Origin: Pseudomonadota bacterium
GTDB taxonomy: Bacteria > Desulfobacterota > Desulfobulbia > Desulfobulbales > Desulfocapsaceae
Assembly (NCBI GenBank): GCA_023412495.1
Contig: JAEYNP010000014.1
Span: 74,872-138,871, forward strand
Reading direction: 5' to 3'
DNA: 64,000 nt
Made by a program: the position numbers and the translations under genes. Below are positions 6,248 through 58,946 of this stretch, one piece after another. The first letter of the stretch is position 1; each line of letters begins with the position of its first letter. The notes under the pieces are model-generated. The model made no database searches, was not told the origin of the DNA, and worked only from the letters and a program-made list of their open reading frames with translations.

Positions 6248-6988
6248 ATGCGAAGATTTTATTTCGATCCCGATGCCCGGCAGGGGGATGAGGTGCTGCT
6301 CTCCGAGGAGGAGTCCCGTCATCTCGTCAAGGTCCTGCGGCTGACCACAGGAGAGAGCGTCGAACTGCTCGACGGGCTGGGGACGGTTTACCGGGCCGTG
6401 ATCGCGGGCACAGGGCGGCGGGTGGCCCTGCACCTGGAGGGGGTTGCTGCCACCGCCCCGGAGCGGGAGAAGACCCTCTGGATCGGTCAGGGAATCCTCA
6501 AGGGCGACAAAATGGACACCGTGATGCAGAAATGCACGGAGCTGGGCGTCACCCGGTTTTCCCCTTTCCACAGTTCACGGTGCCAGGGCAGGCTCGATCC
6601 CGCGCTGGGCAGGAAGAAGCAGCAGAGGTGGCAGCGGATCGGCCTTGAGGCCTGCAAGCAGTGCCTGCGACTCCGCCTGCCGCATGTGGACGGGCCGGTG
6701 CAGTACGGTGAGTTGTTGCAGGGCGAGTCACTGTTGGGCGAGGGCATGCTTCGCCTCATGTTCTGGGAGGAGGAAAAAGAGCTGCATCTTCAAGATCTGC
6801 CGGAAGTCGCCGAGGCCGGGTCGGTCATACTCCTTCTCGGCCCCGAAGGGGGCTTCACCGGGCAGGAGGTCGAGGAGGCCCGGCGCGCAGGCTTTCGGAC
6901 CGTGAGCCTCGGCGAGAGGATTCTCCGGGCCGAGACCGCGACGCTTGCAGCAGTAACCGTCGTCCAGTTCCTTGCCGGCAATCTGTGA
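6248..6988 (+). CDS. rsmE: 16S rRNA (uracil-1498-N3)-methyltransferase
   Basis: SPOUT-class methyltransferase that makes m3U1498 in 16S rRNA. The N-terminal PUA-like part (MRRFYFDPDA..., residues 1-70) and the C-terminal trefoil-knot SAM site (LLGPEGGFTGQEVEEA near 196-211, then SLGERILRAETA near 223-234) are intact. The 246 aa length is normal. The stop lies 11 bases before the mnmH start, so the two RNA-modification genes are probably one transcript. Confidence 0.95.
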   Translation: MRRFYFDPDARQGDEVLLSEEESRHLVKVLRLTTGESVELLDGLGTVYRAVIAGTGRRVALHLEGVAATAPEREKTLWIGQGILKGDKMDTVMQKCTELGVTRFSPFHSSRCQGRLDPALGRKKQQRWQRIGLEACKQCLRLRLPHVDGPVQYGELLQGESLLGEGMLRLMFWEEEKELHLQDLPEVAEAGSVILLLGPEGGFTGQEVEEARRAGFRTVSLGERILRAETATLAAVTVVQFLAGNL

Positions 6989-6999
6989 GGGAACCGTTC

Positions 7000-8043
7000 A
7001 TGACGCAAGATCTCTCCTTCTCGGTCGTCCTGAAAAAAGCCGATAAAATAATCTCCTTTGAAGAGGCCCTGGCGGCCGGCCATCAGCTCATTGATGTCCG
7101 CTCGGCGGCGGAATTCGCCGAAGGCTCGCTGCCCGGCGCCGTCAACATCCCCCTGTTCGACGAAGACGAACGGAGTGTGATCGGCACCATCTACAGGCAC
7201 GGCGGCCACGCTCGGGCTGTCGACCAAGGCTTCGCCTACGCCGAGGGCAAGCTCGCCGGATTGCTCGCGGCCTTCGCCCCTTACCAGGGCAGGACGATTG
7301 CGATCTGCTGCGCCCGAGGAGGGATGCGCTCGCTGTCGGTAGTCAATCTCCTGGCCCGGGTGGGTTACACCGCCTGCCAGCTCGCGGGCGGCTATCAGCA
7401 GTACCGCCGCGAGGTCCTCGCCCGCCTGTCCGACTTTCAGCCGCGCCTGATCGTCATCCACGGTCTCACCGGGACGGGCAAGACCAGGCTCCTTAAGCGG
7501 CTCAGCCCGGCCATCGACCTGGAGGGCCTGGCCCGGCACCGCAGCTCCCTGTTCGGGGCCCTCGACCGGCAGCCGAGCAACCAGCGGGACTTCGAGAGCG
7601 GTCTGGCGCAGCTCATCCCGACCCTGGGCGCCGAACCCTATTTCATCGAAGGGGAGAGCCGCAAGATCGGCCGGGTTTTCATCCCAAAACCCCTGGCCAT
7701 GGCCATGAAGAGGGCGGTGATGGTGAGAATCCATTGCAGCCTTCAGACCAGGATCGACCGGATCCTCGAGGATTATCCCGTACCGGATGAGAAGACCCTT
7801 GGTGCGATCGAAAAGATCCTGAGATCCCTGAAACAAAAGATGGGGGCGGCCCGGGTCGAGGAAATGTGCCGGTTGCTGCAAAACGGCCAACTGTCCGAAC
7901 TGGTCCGTATCCTCCTGCTCGACTACTACGACAAGCGCTACGGCAAAAGCATGCAGGATTACACGTATGCCCTCGATCTCTCCGCCGAAGACCTGGACGA
8001 GGCGGCCGCGGTGCTCACCGAGTTCCGGCGCTCGCTGGGGTGA
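7000..8043 (+). CDS. mnmH: tRNA 2-selenouridine synthase (rhodanese plus P-loop ATPase)
   Basis: Converts tRNA wobble 2-thiouridine to 2-selenouridine via a geranylated intermediate, using selenophosphate. The N-terminal rhodanese domain holds the catalytic Cys in CCARGGMRS (about residue 104), and the C-terminal half has a Walker A GLTGTGKT (about 155-162). The 347 aa length matches SelU/MnmH. I chose the ATG at 7000 because GAGGG lies about eight bases upstream; a GTG at 6985 would overlap rsmE. The gene implies that the cell makes selenophosphate, which is relevant to the in-frame TGA gene at 58071. Confidence 0.93.
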   Translation: MTQDLSFSVVLKKADKIISFEEALAAGHQLIDVRSAAEFAEGSLPGAVNIPLFDEDERSVIGTIYRHGGHARAVDQGFAYAEGKLAGLLAAFAPYQGRTIAICCARGGMRSLSVVNLLARVGYTACQLAGGYQQYRREVLARLSDFQPRLIVIHGLTGTGKTRLLKRLSPAIDLEGLARHRSSLFGALDRQPSNQRDFESGLAQLIPTLGAEPYFIEGESRKIGRVFIPKPLAMAMKRAVMVRIHCSLQTRIDRILEDYPVPDEKTLGAIEKILRSLKQKMGAARVEEMCRLLQNGQLSELVRILLLDYYDKRYGKSMQDYTYALDLSAEDLDEAAAVLTEFRRSLG

Positions 8044-14326: not shown

Positions 14327-14955
14327 GGCCGGCCTTTCCTCGAGCCAGGCGGCGGTCCCGGTGACGGCTCGGTCTTTTTGACGAACTCGGCTGCCGCCCG
14401 CTCCATCTCCGCCATATGGTCGGGACCGGGAACGAGGCGGGCGAATTTGGCCAGATCCGCCTGTTCGAGCCAGATTTGGAGTTCCTGCCGGAAGGGAGCA
14501 AGAGGGCTGTGCCCCCCGGACTGGCCGAGTTCGGCGAGAAACTCCCTGGTAGTCTGGCGGGTCGAGCGGATGGCGAAGCGCGATTCGATGTAGCGGCGCA
14601 GGATCTCGCTCACCCGCTCCACATAAAGCAGGGCCTGGTGCTGCAGCTCCCTGGCCGCGGCCAGCTCGGCCAGGGCCGTCTCCCAGGGCGCGGGGAGCGG
14701 TGCCGATGTCTTTTGTCTCCTTTTCAGGAAGAGGACAACCAAGGCGAAGAGGACCAGCACGATGGCAATGATGCCGCCGATCACCCACCAGGGCGGCTGC
14801 CCGGCCAGGGGGACCGGGCCGTGGATATCGCGCAGACCGATGTCGGAAACCAGAAGCCACAAGCCAGAGTGTCCAGGCGCTTCGCGCTCCGACAGACCGG
14901 GCGCAAAGCGCCATAATGGTCTGTCTTCTGTCCTCTGTCCTCTGACTTCCGTCAT
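14323..14955 (-). CDS. DUF4381 membrane protein of the Bat operon, with repeat-derived N-terminus
   Basis: Small membrane protein usually found between DUF58 and batA genes. The family signature starts around residue 41 (GLRDIHGPVPLAG) and is followed by one membrane helix (about 57-77) and a helical cytoplasmic domain with YVERVSEILRRYIESRF. The first 40 residues are odd: they are encoded by five 7-bp tandem units (14920-14954) beginning at the start codon and then by a hairpin (14891-14925). They look like an inserted repeat that stayed in frame. The ATG overlaps the DUF58 stop by 4 bases. Confidence 0.8.
14891..14954. repeat. 7-bp tandem repeats and hairpin inside the 5' end of the DUF4381 gene
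   Basis: Read on the plus strand, 14920-14954 consists of five heptamers: TCTGTCT, TCTGTCC, TCTGTCC, TCTGACT, TCCGTCA, the last including the start-codon complement. Directly beside it GACAGACC (14891-14898) and GGTCTGTC (14918-14925) are perfect inverted arms around a second palindrome GGCGC-AAA-GCGCC (14900-14912). Gain or loss of one heptamer would shift the reading frame. Confidence 0.75.
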
Positions 14956-15863
14956 GCCGCCCTCCCTTGCCTTTCCTTGAAAAAGCTGAGCAGAACAGGG
15001 AGATACTGTTTACCGGTCTGCAGATCGAGCATGTCTATGCCGGTCGATCGCAGTGCCTTCTCAAGAATTTTCCGCCGCTCTTTCGCCATCTCGCTGTAGC
15101 GCCTTCTCATCTCGGGGTCGCCGGTATTCAGTTCCACCTGCTCGCCGCTCTCCGCATCCTCGAGCGTCAACCAGCCCACGTCGGGCAGCTCGAATTCCCT
15201 CGAGTCGGAGACGATCAGCCCGATCAGGTCATGCCGGCGGTTGCAGACCCGGAGCTTCGGCCGCAATTCGGCGAGCGCCGTCTCGTAGGTGCCGGGCAGG
15301 CAGAAATCGGAGATGAGAAAGGCCACGCATTTCCTTTTCACCACACGATTGGTGAAATCCATGACCACCTGCAGGTCGGTCTTCCTGCCCCGGGGCTCGT
15401 AGTAAAGGATCTCGCGGATGATGCGGAGAATATGGCTCCGGCCCTTTTTCGGCGGGATGTAGAGCTCGACGAAGTCGGTGAACAGCACCAGCCCCACCTT
15501 ATCGTTGTTGCGCACCGCGGAGAAGGCCAGCACCGAGCCCACCTCGGCCATCAGCTCGCGCTTCGAGCCGATGGCCGACCCGAAGTCTCCCGACCCGCTG
15601 ATGTCGATCATCAGCATGATGGTGAGTTCCCGCTCCTCGGTGAATTTCTTGATGTGCGGTGTCCCGGTGCGGGCGGTGACGTTCCAGTCGATGGCCCGGA
15701 TGTCGTCGCCGGCCACGTATTCGCGAACCTCGTCGAAGTTCATGCCACGGCCCTTGAAGACCGAATGGTAGCTGCCGGCCAGGCTGTCGTTGACCAGCCG
15801 CTTGGTGCGGACCTCGATCTGCCGGACCTTCTTCAGGATTTCTCGGGTGAGCCGGATATCCAT
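14952..15863 (-). CDS. DUF58 domain protein of the Bat/MoxR operon
   Basis: 303-aa cytoplasmic protein. The DUF58 signature is clear: the region SVFKGRGMNFDEVREYVAGD (about 35-54) followed by IRAIDWNVTARTG, then a VWA-like fold with MLMIDISGSGDFGS. DUF58 proteins are nearly always next to a MoxR ATPase and are thought to be its partner in chaperone-like or metal-insertion tasks. It starts 9 bases after the moxR stop and overlaps the DUF4381 gene by 4 bases. Confidence 0.9.
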   Translation of the reverse strand: MDIRLTREILKKVRQIEVRTKRLVNDSLAGSYHSVFKGRGMNFDEVREYVAGDDIRAIDWNVTARTGTPHIKKFTEERELTIMLMIDISGSGDFGSAIGSKRELMAEVGSVLAFSAVRNNDKVGLVLFTDFVELYIPPKKGRSHILRIIREILYYEPRGRKTDLQVVMDFTNRVVKRKCVAFLISDFCLPGTYETALAELRPKLRVCNRRHDLIGLIVSDSREFELPDVGWLTLEDAESGEQVELNTGDPEMRRRYSEMAKERRKILEKALRSTGIDMLDLQTGKQYLPVLLSFFKERQGRAA

Positions 15864-15872
15864 GGCGCAGCC

Positions 15873-16934
15873 TCAGGGTACGGGGACGGTGTCGAGGATC
15901 TTGCGGATGATGTCCTCGCTGCCGATGCCCTCGGCCTCCGCCTCGTAACTGAGCCGCAGCCGGTGGCGCATGACGTCCATGGCCGCCGCCTTGACATCGT
16001 CCGGCGTCACGTAGCCCCGGCCGGCGAGGTAGGCAAGGCAGCGGGCGGCGATCTTCAGGTTCAGGCTCGCCCTCGGCGAGGCACCCGTCTCGATATATTC
16101 CTTCAGCTGGAGCTGAAAGCTTTCCGGTTCCCGCGTGGCGTAGACCAGAGCGACGATGTAGTCCTTGATCTTGCCGTCCATATAAACGCTGTTCACCACC
16201 TGGCGGGCGCCGAGGATGTCGGCGGGGGTAGTCACCGGTGCCACCTCGATATTCTCGTCCAGCCTGTCGTAGCGGTCGAGTATCCGCCGTTCCTCGTCCC
16301 GGCTCGGGTAGTCGATCACCACCTTCAGCATGAAGCGGTCGACCTGGGCCTCGGGCAGGGGGTAGGTGCCCTCCTGCTCGATGGGGTTCTGCGTGGCGAG
16401 CACCAGGAAGAGTTCCGGCAGCTTGAAACTCTGTTCGCCGATGGTCACCTGTTTTTCCTGCATGGCCTCGAGCAGGGCCGACTGGACCTTGGCCGGGGCC
16501 CGGTTGATCTCGTCGGCAAGGATGAGCGATGAGAAGATCGGTCCATGCTTGACCTCGAAGCTTGTCTGCTGCGGCTTGTAGATCTCGGTGCCGATGATGT
16601 CGGCGGGCAGCATGTCCGGGGTGAACTGGATCCGCCGGAAGTCGGTCTGAATGGCGCGGGCGAGGGTTTTGACCGCCAGGGTCTTGGCCAGGCCCGGCAG
16701 CCCTTCCAGGAGGATGTGGCCGCCCGACAGCAGGCCGACCAGGAGGCGCTCAACGAGATGGTCCTGGCCGACGATCACCTTTTTCAACTCGTAGCGGAGC
16801 GGTGCGAGCCAGCCGGAGCTTTGAGCAACCGCCTCTCCCACCCGCTGTATGGAAGAATAGGTGTCCGCCGGCGATGCGCCGGCCATTCCGGGCGGAGAGA
16901 GGGGCGGCAGCGGATTCGGTGGGGGATGTATCAT
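15873..16934 (-). CDS. moxR: MoxR-family AAA+ ATPase
   Basis: First gene of the seven-gene Bat operon. It has Walker A GLPGLAKT (about 78-85), Walker B ILADEINRAP (about 134-143), sensor-1 ATQNPIEQEGTYPLPEAQVDRF (about 180-200) and the C-terminal AAA lid. The N-terminal 20 residues are Pro-rich. The ATG follows GAGGAACAGAC. MoxR ATPases act with VWA proteins (here DUF58, BatA, BatB/C) in assembly or stress functions at the envelope; the client here is unknown. Confidence 0.93.
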   Translation of the reverse strand: MIHPPPNPLPPLSPPGMAGASPADTYSSIQRVGEAVAQSSGWLAPLRYELKKVIVGQDHLVERLLVGLLSGGHILLEGLPGLAKTLAVKTLARAIQTDFRRIQFTPDMLPADIIGTEIYKPQQTSFEVKHGPIFSSLILADEINRAPAKVQSALLEAMQEKQVTIGEQSFKLPELFLVLATQNPIEQEGTYPLPEAQVDRFMLKVVIDYPSRDEERRILDRYDRLDENIEVAPVTTPADILGARQVVNSVYMDGKIKDYIVALVYATREPESFQLQLKEYIETGASPRASLNLKIAARCLAYLAGRGYVTPDDVKAAAMDVMRHRLRLSYEAEAEGIGSEDIIRKILDTVPVP

Positions 16935-17277
16935 GTCTGTTCCTCGAAAAAGGGATTTTCATCTAAAAAGAGAGTCCCTGGCAATGTATTCCCGAAACAT
17001 TGCCGAAGTCTTTCGACAACATTACAAAGTCGTAATGTTGCCGAGAGGGACAATCTGCGGCCGAAGCCGCCGGGCCCCCTTTCTTCCTGCTGGCAAACTG
17101 CTAATGCTGGCTGTCGCCCGCAACCAAAGGGGGTTGTTATCCCCTCCCAAAGCAGAGGGGATAAGTACTTCACGAGATGATTTTCTGCAAAAACGCGCAG
17201 AAAATTATTTCCAAGGTACTACTGTCTTATCCAGACGATTCCGGCGGTTTTCTTGACCATACATCATGGAGAAGGCT
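16935..17277. other. Intergenic region with a 24-bp dyad and one dispersed repeat copy
   Basis: This 343-base gap separates divergent moxR and the thioesterase gene. It holds a perfect 9-bp inverted repeat CAACATTAC/GTAATGTTG (17017-17025 and 17032-17040, 6-base loop), placed where a moxR-operon operator or hairpin could lie, and a repeat copy at 17101-17220. No ORF in it has coding character. Confidence 0.6.
17101..17220 (-). repeat. Copy of a dispersed repeat (family copy B)
   Basis: Read on the minus strand it begins AGTACCTTGGAAATAATTTT, has an 8-bp hairpin TTTTCTGC/GCAGAAAA, then GTGAAGTACTTATCCCCTCTG, GGGAGGGGATAACAACCC and GGTTGCGGGCGACAGCC. The same blocks in the same order occur at 57929-58063; partial copies are at 33173, 44036 and 47024. 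Confidence 0.75.
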
Positions 17278-44035: not shown

Positions 44036-44056
44036 AGTACCTTAGAAATTCATTTC
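44036..44056 (+). repeat. Partial copy of the dispersed repeat (copy E)
   Basis: AGTACCTTAGAAATTCATTT plus one C is identical over 21 bases to 57929-57949. It lies in the gap downstream of ftsH. Confidence 0.55.
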
Positions 44057-57344: not shown

Positions 57345-57803
57345 TCAGTCGAAGGCAGCGCGTTCCCGGTGCATCCGGAGCAGCGCGACCGTCCCCTCTC
57401 GCACCAGCTTGCGGCATTGGGCCATCTGGTTTTCCTCGCCGAAACGCTCACGCAGGATGCCGCAGTTGGTGGTGTCGTAGCTGTCGATGAACCACTGCCG
57501 AATCGCCGCTCCGAATTCTGCCGGGCGATCCCAGCCCTCGCCCCGCCGGCGGCGGCCGCAGACGTGACCGATGGCGATCAGGCATCCCGACAGCACCCCG
57601 CAGGCCTCACCGAAGGTCCTGCCGAAACCGCCGCCGAAGGGGGTGGCATGGGCCACGGCCTCGGTGGGATCGTCGCCGAGACTCTCCAAGAAGGCTGCAA
57701 CCACCGCCTCCGCACAATGGTACCCCTCGCCGAAATAGCCGGCCGCCTTCTCCCCCGCCTCCTGCAGGTCAATCTTCTCTTGCACGTCGAACTGTGTCGT
57801 CAT
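57345..57803 (-). CDS. C_GCAxxG_C_C family putative redox protein
   Basis: 152 aa with Cys30, Cys68, Cys74, Cys82, Cys114 and Cys130. The pattern GYHCAEAV, then GEACGVLSGCLIAIG, then TNCGILRE, then QCRKLV matches the C_GCAxxG_C_C family, a group of cysteine-rich proteins of unknown, probably redox, function common in anaerobes. It is divergent from the LysR-type gene with the in-frame TGA; a strong dyad lies between them, so it is the most likely target of that regulator. Confidence 0.87.
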   Translation of the reverse strand: MTTQFDVQEKIDLQEAGEKAAGYFGEGYHCAEAVVAAFLESLGDDPTEAVAHATPFGGGFGRTFGEACGVLSGCLIAIGHVCGRRRRGEGWDRPAEFGAAIRQWFIDSYDTTNCGILRERFGEENQMAQCRKLVREGTVALLRMHRERAAFD

Positions 57804-57873: not shown

Positions 57874-57900
57874 TATCGTTACAAACGATTTATAACGATA
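57874..57900. promoter_or_regulatory. Operator-like dyad between the C_GCAxxG gene and the LysR gene
   Basis: ATCGTTACAAACGAT (57875-57889) is a perfect ATC-N9-GAT palindrome of the LysR T-N11-A type, inside a wider TATCGTTA/TAACGATA dyad (57874-57900). AACGATTAATCG just upstream repeats the same half-site. Confidence 0.6.
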
Positions 57901-57928: not shown

Positions 57929-58063
57929 AGTACCTTAGAAATTCATTTCGTGTTTTTTGAAATGAACTTCGTGAAGGTACTTATACCTCTCAAGGGGGTA
58001 CTGAAAAGAGTCCCCTCTGCTGTGGGAGGGGATAACAACCCTTGGTTGCGGGCGTCAGCCCGC
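57929..58063 (+). repeat. Dispersed repeat, most complete copy (A)
   Basis: Parts in order: AGTACCTTAGAAA, hairpin TTCATTTC/GAAATGAA, GTGAAGGTACTTAT, core CTCAAGGGGGTACTGAAAAGAG, GGGAGGGGATAACAACCC and GGTTGCGGGCGTCAGCC. It lies directly before the LysR start, between it and the operator-like dyad. Confidence 0.75.
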
Positions 58064-58070
58064 TTAGGTT

Positions 58071-58946
58071 ATGGAGTTTCGACAACTCAAAACCTTTCGG
58101 ATAGTCGCCGAGTTGGAGAGCTTCACCCGCGCGGCGGAACAGCTCCATCTGGCCCAATCCTCCGTGTCCGCCCAGATCAGAGGGCTGGAGGAGGAACTGC
58201 GGGTCATGCTCTTCGACCGGATCGGCCGCCGGGTGCTGCTCACCGAGGCTGGCCGGAAACTCTACGATTACGCCCGCCGCATCGAAGGGATCGCCGAGGA
58301 GCTGCGGTCCGAGGTCGCAGGTGAGCGGTATGCCAGGGGGAGCCTCACCATCCGCATGCCGGAGACCCTGGCGAGCGTCTACATGGTGGAGGTGATCGAG
58401 GAATTTTACCGGGAATTTCCGGAGGTGCGGCTGATCTTCATCAACTGCGCGGATAGGCAGTTGGCGCGGGAATTCCAGGCGGGGACCATCGATCTGGCCT
58501 TTCTGATGACCGATGAACTGCAGATGCAGGATGTGAAGGTGGTGGCGTTGAAGGAGGAAGAGCTGGTGCTGGCGGCCGCGCCGGACCATCCCCTGGCATT
58601 GCGGCGGAGCCTCGCGCCTGCCGATCTCACCGGCCAGACCATCCTCTACCCCAGGACCGACTGAAGTTATCGCCGCATGTTCGAGCGGTCGCTCGAAGAG
58701 CAGCGGATAGAGCACCGGGCTATCGAATTCTCGAGCGGCAATTCCCTGCGCGGATGCCTGCAGCGTGGGATCGGCCTATCCTTCTGCCCCAGGATCTCCA
58801 TTACCCGCGAGATGCGGGCAGGCTCCCTGGAGGTGCTCGACTGGCCGGAGACCTTCACTTCAGTGATCATGATCCGCCATGCCGACAAGTGGTGCTCGCC
58901 GCTCCTGACCCGGTTCATGGAGATCGCCCGGGCAAGGATCAGCTGA
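58071..58946 (+). CDS. LysR-type regulator with in-frame TGA at codon 198 (candidate selenoprotein)
   Basis: The frame codes for 291 residues, the usual LysR length, if the TGA at 58662-58664 is read through. The N-terminal HTH is intact (FRIVAELESFTRAAEQLHLAQSSVSAQI...EEELRVMLFDR). Before the TGA is LTGQTILYPRTD and after it SYRRMFERSLEE; LysR proteins commonly have a Cys in this D/G-C-S-Y-R motif, the OxyR Cys199 region. The 93 codons after the TGA show normal LysR features (SGNSLRGCLQRGIGLSFCP). A hairpin follows the TGA. Alternatives are a nonsense pseudogene or a sequencing error. Its own ribosome site is weak. Confidence 0.75.
58662..58709 (+). promoter_or_regulatory. In-frame TGA with SECIS-like hairpin
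   Basis: TGA at 58662-58664. UUCGAGC (58680-58686) and GCUCGAA (58691-58697) pair perfectly around the loop GGUC, which starts 22 bases after the TGA. Lower pairings CCGC/GCGG and UAU/AUA extend it to 58668-58709. A G at the loop start, a stem of this length and a 16-37 base distance fit known bacterial SECIS features. Confidence 0.6.

Follow-up and report, generated by a model that had tools for sequence, protein, structure and literature searches.

Results

The lysR-U gene and its surroundings

The window, by which we mean the whole stretch of 64,000 nucleotides that was analysed, contains a LysR-type regulator gene, lysR-U, with one in-frame TGA (Table 1). Its translation has a single internal stop, at codon 198, followed by 93 codons up to the terminal TGA, and the product would have 291 amino acids if the internal TGA specifies selenocysteine (Sec). 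When read through, this product matched the Pfam models HTH_1 (residues 3-62, 78.7 bits) and LysR_substrate (residues 88-289, 135.6 bits), both above cut-off. The original prediction, made from the DNA letters alone, had described the TGA as the sole break in a full-length LysR gene and the 93 codons behind it as LysR sequence; the translation and both domains agree with the first point, and the second is borne out by the LysR_substrate match, which crosses the TGA. A transglutaminase-like gene lies downstream on the opposite strand. The closest copy that we found, with 86% identity, is locus L001 of Desulfobacterales bacterium GWB2_56_26, where the gene order, judged by eye, matches that of the window.

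Table 1. Features of the lysR-U locus, in positions of the window
Feature	Positions	Strand	Remark
Divergent C_GCAxxG_C_C gene (PF09719 / TIGR01909), likely regulated target	57345..57803	-	Pfam 3.2e-21
Putative operator ATCGT-N5-ACGATTTAT, T-N11-A palindrome	57875..57893		divergent intergenic region
Repeat-like insertion between operator and lysR-U start	57929..58070		not seen there in relatives compared
lysR-U, LysR-type regulator gene with one in-frame TGA	58071..58946	+	HTH_1 and LysR_substrate across the TGA
Codon 198, TGA, predicted selenocysteine	58662..58664	+	TGA in 23/23 close copies aligned
Bacterial SECIS hairpin, 7 bp stem, loop GGUC	58680..58697	+	22 nt from TGA to loop

Another in-frame TGA candidate, at 15875 on the minus strand (14952-16934) and one of ten crude candidates from a scan of the window, was rejected because the interval holds two ordinary adjoining genes, a MoxR-type AAA gene and a DUF58 gene, in the same frame.

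Codon 198 in related genes

A protein search for homologues of lysR-U returned 761 matches, 120 of which were listed and counted from their protein sequences, not their DNA. Among the matches listed, 37 products end exactly before codon 198, including the window's own product P0001, and the remaining 83 reach past this codon and have Cys there without exception (83/83), as expected from the earlier remark that the TGA stands at a position where LysR proteins often have Cys. Many members of the family are therefore found in databases as truncated proteins of 197 residues.

A scan of the genome DNA in our collection gave 16 loci, with TGA in L001, L002, L003 and L012. Whole-genome searches gave 16 matches in 257 genomes and 44 matches in 389 genomes; a single TGA was present in 6 and 16 of these, respectively (22/60), 37 matches had no stop, and one had TAG. 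All whole-genome matches with at least 51% identity to lysR-U have the TGA and all those with 48% or less are without it, but nine full-length Cys proteins with 51-59% identity among the protein matches listed (P0003, P0004, P0009, P0010, P0011, P0019, P0033, P0034 and P0035) run against such a clean division by identity. The TGA copies of 22 other genomes span 51-86% identity to the window's gene.

Taken over 62 loci, codon 198 is TGA in 25 (22 distinct, as L001, L002 and L003 are the same copies as L033, L053 and L054 and were dropped before the counts below), TGC or TGT in 33 and another codon in three; it could not be placed in L012 owing to a deletion. The more distant loci have TGC or TGT in 33 of 36 cases, the rest being GAG, CAC and TGG in genes of 28-30% identity. 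When the 23 distinct TGA copies, that of the window among them, were aligned by codon, all had TGA at codon 198, and neither TAA nor TAG occurs at this codon in the window or the 22 other genomes with a TGA copy. L013, L014 and L016 (GAG, CAC and TGG) and L015 (TGT, frame broken) were kept out of the codon alignment, so that Cys at this codon was a condition for entry into the set of 32 Cys copies referred to below; without selection the counts are 33/36 and 83/83. The start of L064 was set too short by the script (224 codons), which also shifted its operator distance. L012 (5001-5519), a metagenomic TGA copy with an internal deletion and a shifted frame in which TGA and hairpin are intact, entered neither the trees nor the codon and hairpin alignments.

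An identical TGA in 23 distinct copies makes a read error most unlikely, and the very long contigs on which some copies stand, with matches at 2.65 and 4.1 Mb, speak against an assembly error. The alignment of homologues proposed with the original prediction thus gave TGA in the close copies and Cys in the others, and the homologues with Cys continue beyond codon 198 instead of ending there. Its recurrence as the single TGA, at the identical codon, in 22 other genomes also upholds the view that the TGA is not a random nonsense mutation.

Selection on the codons after the TGA

We compared nonsynonymous and synonymous change over codons 211-291, a range chosen to avoid the hairpin. dN was lower than dS in all 11 pairs tested, with saturated synonymous change in some pairs, a sign of purifying selection downstream of the TGA. 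For the pair formed by the window and L033, to take one example, the divergence is 0.133 at nonsynonymous and 0.907 at synonymous sites.

The SECIS hairpin

The hairpin with loop GGUC that had been noted 22 bases downstream of the TGA was located with arms at 58680-58686 and 58691-58697 and the loop at 58687-58690. The bacterial SECIS model, as described in passages of a 2026 review (PMC13188914), has a loop of 3-9 nt with G in the first two loop positions, a stem of 4-16 bp, a spacing of 16-37 nt and an energy of -7.5 kcal/mol or lower. The hairpin of the window has -9.0 kcal/mol as a bare stem and -12.2 kcal/mol in a 40-nt piece. The fold calculation suggested at the outset came out in favour of the hairpin for the 49-nt piece that starts at the TGA (-18.7 kcal/mol, z = -2.38, 3 of 200 shuffles equally good) but less so for three other cuts of this piece, whose z scores were only -0.73 to -1.21. 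A loose SECIS model accepts 135 of the window's 1694 TGA triplets as well. Judged from the window sequence alone the hairpin is therefore weak evidence, and it is conservation that makes it strong. Rfam gave nothing at the gathering threshold over the window, with one chance-level match at the hairpin.

The geometry of the model is present in 22 of the 23 TGA copies, which have a 4-nt loop, a spacing of 22 nt and a stem of 6-8 bp; L064 deviates. When the -7.5 kcal/mol rule is applied to an uninterrupted stem, 14/23 TGA copies pass, and 2/32 Cys copies pass with other hairpins. Synonymous identity among the TGA copies, calculated in six-codon windows, peaks at codons 205-210, where it reaches 0.88 against a gene mean of 0.40 (SD 0.09); the Cys copies have 0.38 at these codons. 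In the hairpin alignment 97.5% of the cells are paired and four of the seven pairs have changed on both sides, a result that none of 500 shuffles equalled, and partners slid out of register pair at 30-46%. RNAalifold recovered the same hairpin de novo. A covariance model built from the 23 copies gave 60.2 bits for L012, a TGA copy held out of the model, and at most 10.5 bits for Cys loci at the homologous site. Elsewhere in the Cys loci its best scores were 21.5 bits (L009) and 12.6 bits (L065); the former match, at 1868-1894 in a Bacillota MAG and away from the regulator, could be either chance or another selenoprotein. What had been called SECIS-like can accordingly be put more firmly, for the hairpin is conserved and covarying in the TGA copies and is not kept in the Cys copies.

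Selenium genes in the window and in relatives

The mnmH gene (tRNA 2-selenouridine synthase) that had been recognised in the window was confirmed at 6985-8043 on the plus strand, with a score of 328.7 bits (cut-off 241). A search with ARAGORN gave no tRNA anywhere in the window. All four genomes of the first TGA relatives (G001-G004) have a full-length selB and a tRNA-Sec match above the cut-offs, one of the tRNA-Sec matches being partial. When 19 others were included, selB was above cut-off in 21 of the 23 genomes with a TGA copy and tRNA-Sec likewise in 21. The gaps are selB in G135 and G521 and tRNA-Sec in G521 and G617; selA, which was searched in these three genomes only, was found in each. 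Because 217 of the 257 genomes searched from the class have selB (the same threshold matches 2 of 14 control genomes), its co-occurrence with TGA copies proves little; its presence in the relatives is necessary for Sec insertion but is no proof of it.

The divergent gene, the operator and the insertion

The divergent gene scored 51.4 bits with TIGR01909 (cut-off 47.4). Passages of the 2026 review (PMC13188914) list two Sec-containing forms of the C_GCAxxG_C_C family, and a member is described as acetone-inducible in a sulfate reducer in the part available of PMC4103992. An upstream gene of this family stands at 13 of the 23 TGA loci, and also at L012, and at 12 of the 32 Cys loci; for some of the Cys loci only a short stretch of flanking sequence was available. 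It was not found at the other 10 of the 23 TGA loci, some of which have another small protein in the divergent position. No TGA-interrupted C_GCAxxG_C_C partner was seen at these ten loci with a crude motif filter, a weak check because the filter also missed the true gene of L034.

The divergent gene of L063 (982-1374, minus strand) encodes a DGC-domain protein (PF08859) instead of a C_GCAxxG_C_C protein. Those of L056 (2288-2785), L057 (1021-1377) and L052 encode small proteins in which motifs resembling PDIVILDxFP occur and which, on inspection, may be receiver-like; Pfam gave no match for the proteins of L056 and L057.

The putative operator, ATCGT-N5-ACGATTTAT, is the sole match of the window with one mismatch or none (0.03 expected). 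The 23 TGA loci have it exactly in 11 cases, with one mismatch in eight, with two in three and with four in one; L049 is without a good match. Shuffled sequences (100 per locus) had about five mismatches on average and never fewer than two; since the pattern was read off 17 of the same loci, these counts are a description and not an independent test. For L034, the intergenic length used with the pattern came from a wrong reading frame, and this locus is outside the 11 gaps measured below. A site within two mismatches is present in 10 of 31 Cys loci. A slightly loosened pattern gave 17 matches in 14 of the 23 TGA genomes, and the reversed pattern gave two, both in one genome. As 15 of the 17 matches are at the lysR-U locus itself, the regulon looks local. 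In G003 a second operator-like site (L085, about 1519, minus strand) precedes a gene whose product, on visual inspection, looks like a BON-domain protein. From the palindrome and its place in the divergent region, the lysR-U protein is likely to regulate the divergent gene through the T-N11-A site.

The first 21 bases of the insertion recur exactly at 44036-44056 and with three mismatches at 17200-17220 (0.00 expected). Copies of this repeat-like element have AGTACCTT ends, and the longer copies are partly similar; a search for repeats within the intergenic region alone gave nothing. The gap between lysR-U and the divergent gene is 267 nt in the window and 108-137 nt in the 11 relatives measured. 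Because the insertion parts the operator from the start of lysR-U, expression of the window's copy may be altered.

TGA and Cys forms in one lineage

Maximum likelihood on 55 rows groups the 23 TGA copies into a single clade (support 100/100). A second tree, of the first 197 residues in 90 rows, included 23 of the 37 truncated proteins, 18 of 81 full-length proteins and the loci except L064, L046, L007 and L009-L011. In it the Cys-type P0003 falls inside the group of TGA and truncated members (98/88), so that there is good support for one switch or more between Sec and Cys. Switches of this kind are usual for selenoproteins. P0004, P0009, P0010, P0011 and P0019 stand beside L037, L051 and L052 (89/86), a placement that is not firm, and P0033 and P0034 branch just outside the TGA clade.

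Cys126 and Cys229 are common to TGA and Cys copies. Cys239 is present in 22/23 TGA copies and 0/32 Cys loci, all 32 of which have Leu or Ile there, and Cys275 in 21/23 and 2/32, respectively. Both are found in P0033 and in the nested Cys proteins, and neither is found in P0034 or P0035. The presence of these cysteines in Cys-type kin such as P0033 means that they are not tied to Sec, and the pattern suggests that Cys239 and Cys275 arose before Sec or together with it. The natural Sec and Cys versions within one clade are available for comparison.

Predicted structure

AlphaFold2 on 84 sequences (an alignment without L064 and L046) predicted a LysR fold with pLDDT 87.8 and pTM 0.73, in which residue 198 immediately precedes the effector-domain helix 199-210. 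Among solved structures, the nearest are those of LysR regulators, OxyR and YeiE included. Against OxyR of E. coli K-12, residue 198 falls on His198 when R201 is in register, and hhalign puts it on Cys199.

Discussion

lysR-U almost certainly encodes Sec at residue 198, to judge from the conserved TGA, the selection on the codons behind it and the hairpin. It is very probable that several bacteria, including sulfate reducers, carry a LysR regulator with Sec in place of Cys, and this points to a gene switch that works with selenium. We conclude that lysR-U represents a new selenoprotein family, probably a regulator with Sec as its sensor residue.

The UGA at codon 198 would be read as Sec under the direction of the SECIS hairpin immediately downstream. 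The arrangement of the locus and its conservation suggest that the protein binds the T-N11-A palindrome, which in a typical copy precedes the start of lysR-U by about 59 nt, and may thereby control both itself and the divergent gene, in most cases the gene of a C_GCAxxG_C_C redox protein. The selenol of Sec198 would be the sensor: it may react with an oxidant or another electrophile and then form a reversible bond with a nearby thiol, which could alter the tetramer on the DNA. The best candidate for this thiol is Cys239, because it is peculiar to the TGA clade and its closest Cys kin. We regard this explanation, in its core of a full-length regulator with SECIS-directed Sec198, operator control and a selenol sensor, as likely, a grade that does not extend to every step. 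A role of residue 198 in sensing redox state or electrophiles is a hypothesis to which we give a somewhat better than even chance. More speculatively, the protein might be a dual-input factor that responds to selenium supply, through the Sec-tRNA required for full length, and to the level of oxidant or electrophile, through the Sec198-Cys239 bond. Such a regulator would have evolved from a Cys-type LysR that already had the extra cysteines.

Residue 198 could instead bind a ligand or metal such as sulfite, a persulfide or a soft metal and serve effector recognition with no redox cycling. In other LysR regulators this region is near the effector site, the sulfite-sensing YeiE is among the closest folds, and the neighbouring genes include possible metal or redox partners (PF09719, and DGC in L063). 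The extra cysteines at 239 and 275, on the other hand, suit a reversible bond, and most uncharacterised selenoproteins are thought likely to have redox functions in the passages seen of PMC13188914, so that we consider simple binding unlikely.

Alternatively, the signal could be the supply of selenium, to which a gene that depends on a SECIS should be sensitive. A shortage of Sec-tRNA would leave a truncated product, inactive or dominant-negative, with the chemistry of residue 198 secondary. The best NCBIfam match of lysR-U is NF040786, and the LysR relatives HrsM/LysR_Se govern selenium genes according to the part of PMC5322559 available. However, 20 of the 23 TGA genomes encode an NF040786 regulator, above cut-off, in addition to their lysR-U copy, Cys members inside the clade sit badly with a pure supply switch, and Cys is the residue at codon 198 in all 83 of the listed matches that reach that far. 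We therefore hold supply as the main signal to be rather improbable.

Three further readings were ruled out by the conserved TGA, the selection, the terminal TGAs and the hairpin. If the TGA were a true stop, a regulator of 197 residues would be in use, and the frame behind it would be idle or translated from a restart. Gene callers do end 37 of the 120 listed homologues here, and an ATG follows at 58677 (codon 203). This ATG is present in only 4 of the 23 TGA copies, the downstream codons are under purifying selection, their homology with Cys proteins runs through to the last codon, and a conserved hairpin of the SECIS type would be useless; this reading is highly improbable. If lysR-U were simply a Cys-type gene disrupted by a nonsense mutation, a pseudogene or the result of a sequencing error, the single TGA as the only break and the repeat-like insertion upstream of the window's copy would fit. 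This is barely credible, as the same codon is TGA in 22 further genomes, at identities as low as 51% and in some cases on very long contigs, with purifying selection beyond it and never TAA or TAG in its place. A changed genetic code, with TGA as an amino acid throughout the organism, would account for one gene with an internal TGA but is next to impossible, as TGA is the commonest terminal stop (22 of 42 in a crude set of ORFs of the window) and ends lysR-U itself, and the hairpin accompanies the TGA copies.

The preferred reading, a regulator with an encoded Sec198, extends a list that is overwhelmingly made up of enzymes and of redox or metal-handling proteins, as far as the passages seen of the 2026 review go, which counts 119 prokaryotic selenoprotein families (PMC13188914). 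Its Table 1 has no LysR, and the sole entry called regulatory there is a "putative regulatory protein, FmdB family". The word LysR is absent from the main texts of this review, the deep-Sep paper, a study of marine Deltaproteobacteria and an older read-through survey. Our literature search, mostly confined to papers outside subscription, found, among the papers listed, no report linking selenoproteins or selenocysteine to LysR, OxyR, transcriptional regulators or transcription factors, and there was no Sec-LysR model among the best 25 of the 55 matches of lysR-U in NCBIfam release 20.0. We know of no earlier DNA-binding regulator in bacteria with an encoded Sec as the sensing residue. LysR is one of the largest bacterial regulator families, and Sec within it would place selenium chemistry directly in gene control. 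This raises the question why a sensor, probably of low abundance, needs Sec over Cys, be it for speed, for resistance to over-oxidation or for sensing of supply.

Comparison with known systems

OxyR of E. coli (b3961) forms a sulfenic acid at Cys199 and a disulfide with Cys208, as stated in passages of PMC3953959. lysR-U, with 28% identity, has the LysR fold and the place of the sensing residue in common with it, but with Sec where OxyR has Cys. The proximity to Cys199 put forward in the original prediction holds to within one position, Sec198 adjoining the Cys199 column; the resolving Cys208 has no counterpart, being Leu208 here in the alignment with R201 in register, so lysR-U is without the OxyR pair and the analogy covers the place of the residue and not the resolving residue. 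Membership of lysR-U in OxyR was rejected for the same Leu and for a score of 101.9 bits with the NCBIfam OxyR model (cut-off 329). YeiE, the sulfite-sensing LysR regulator (PDB 7erq), has 19% identity to lysR-U and is to our knowledge not a selenoprotein.

With NF040786 (LysR_Se/HrsM) the likeness is the link with selenium-using organisms, and passages of PMC5322559 describe LysR_Se/HrsM as a regulator of selenium genes. These passages do not describe Sec in it, unlike what is predicted for lysR-U, and at 137.9 bits against a cut-off of 250 lysR-U was rejected as a member.

The Cys-type LysR genes L004, L006, L008, L068 and L069 have 43-47% identity, the same kind of neighbour (C_GCAxxG_C_C) and, as in the TGA loci, an operator at a similar distance, here within two to three mismatches, but they differ from lysR-U in having Cys at 198, no comparable hairpin and Leu or Ile at 239. 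With the prokaryotic selenoprotein families, as portrayed in passages of PMC13188914, lysR-U has in common the pair of Cys and Sec forms, a SECIS element downstream and, in its relatives, the Sec machinery.
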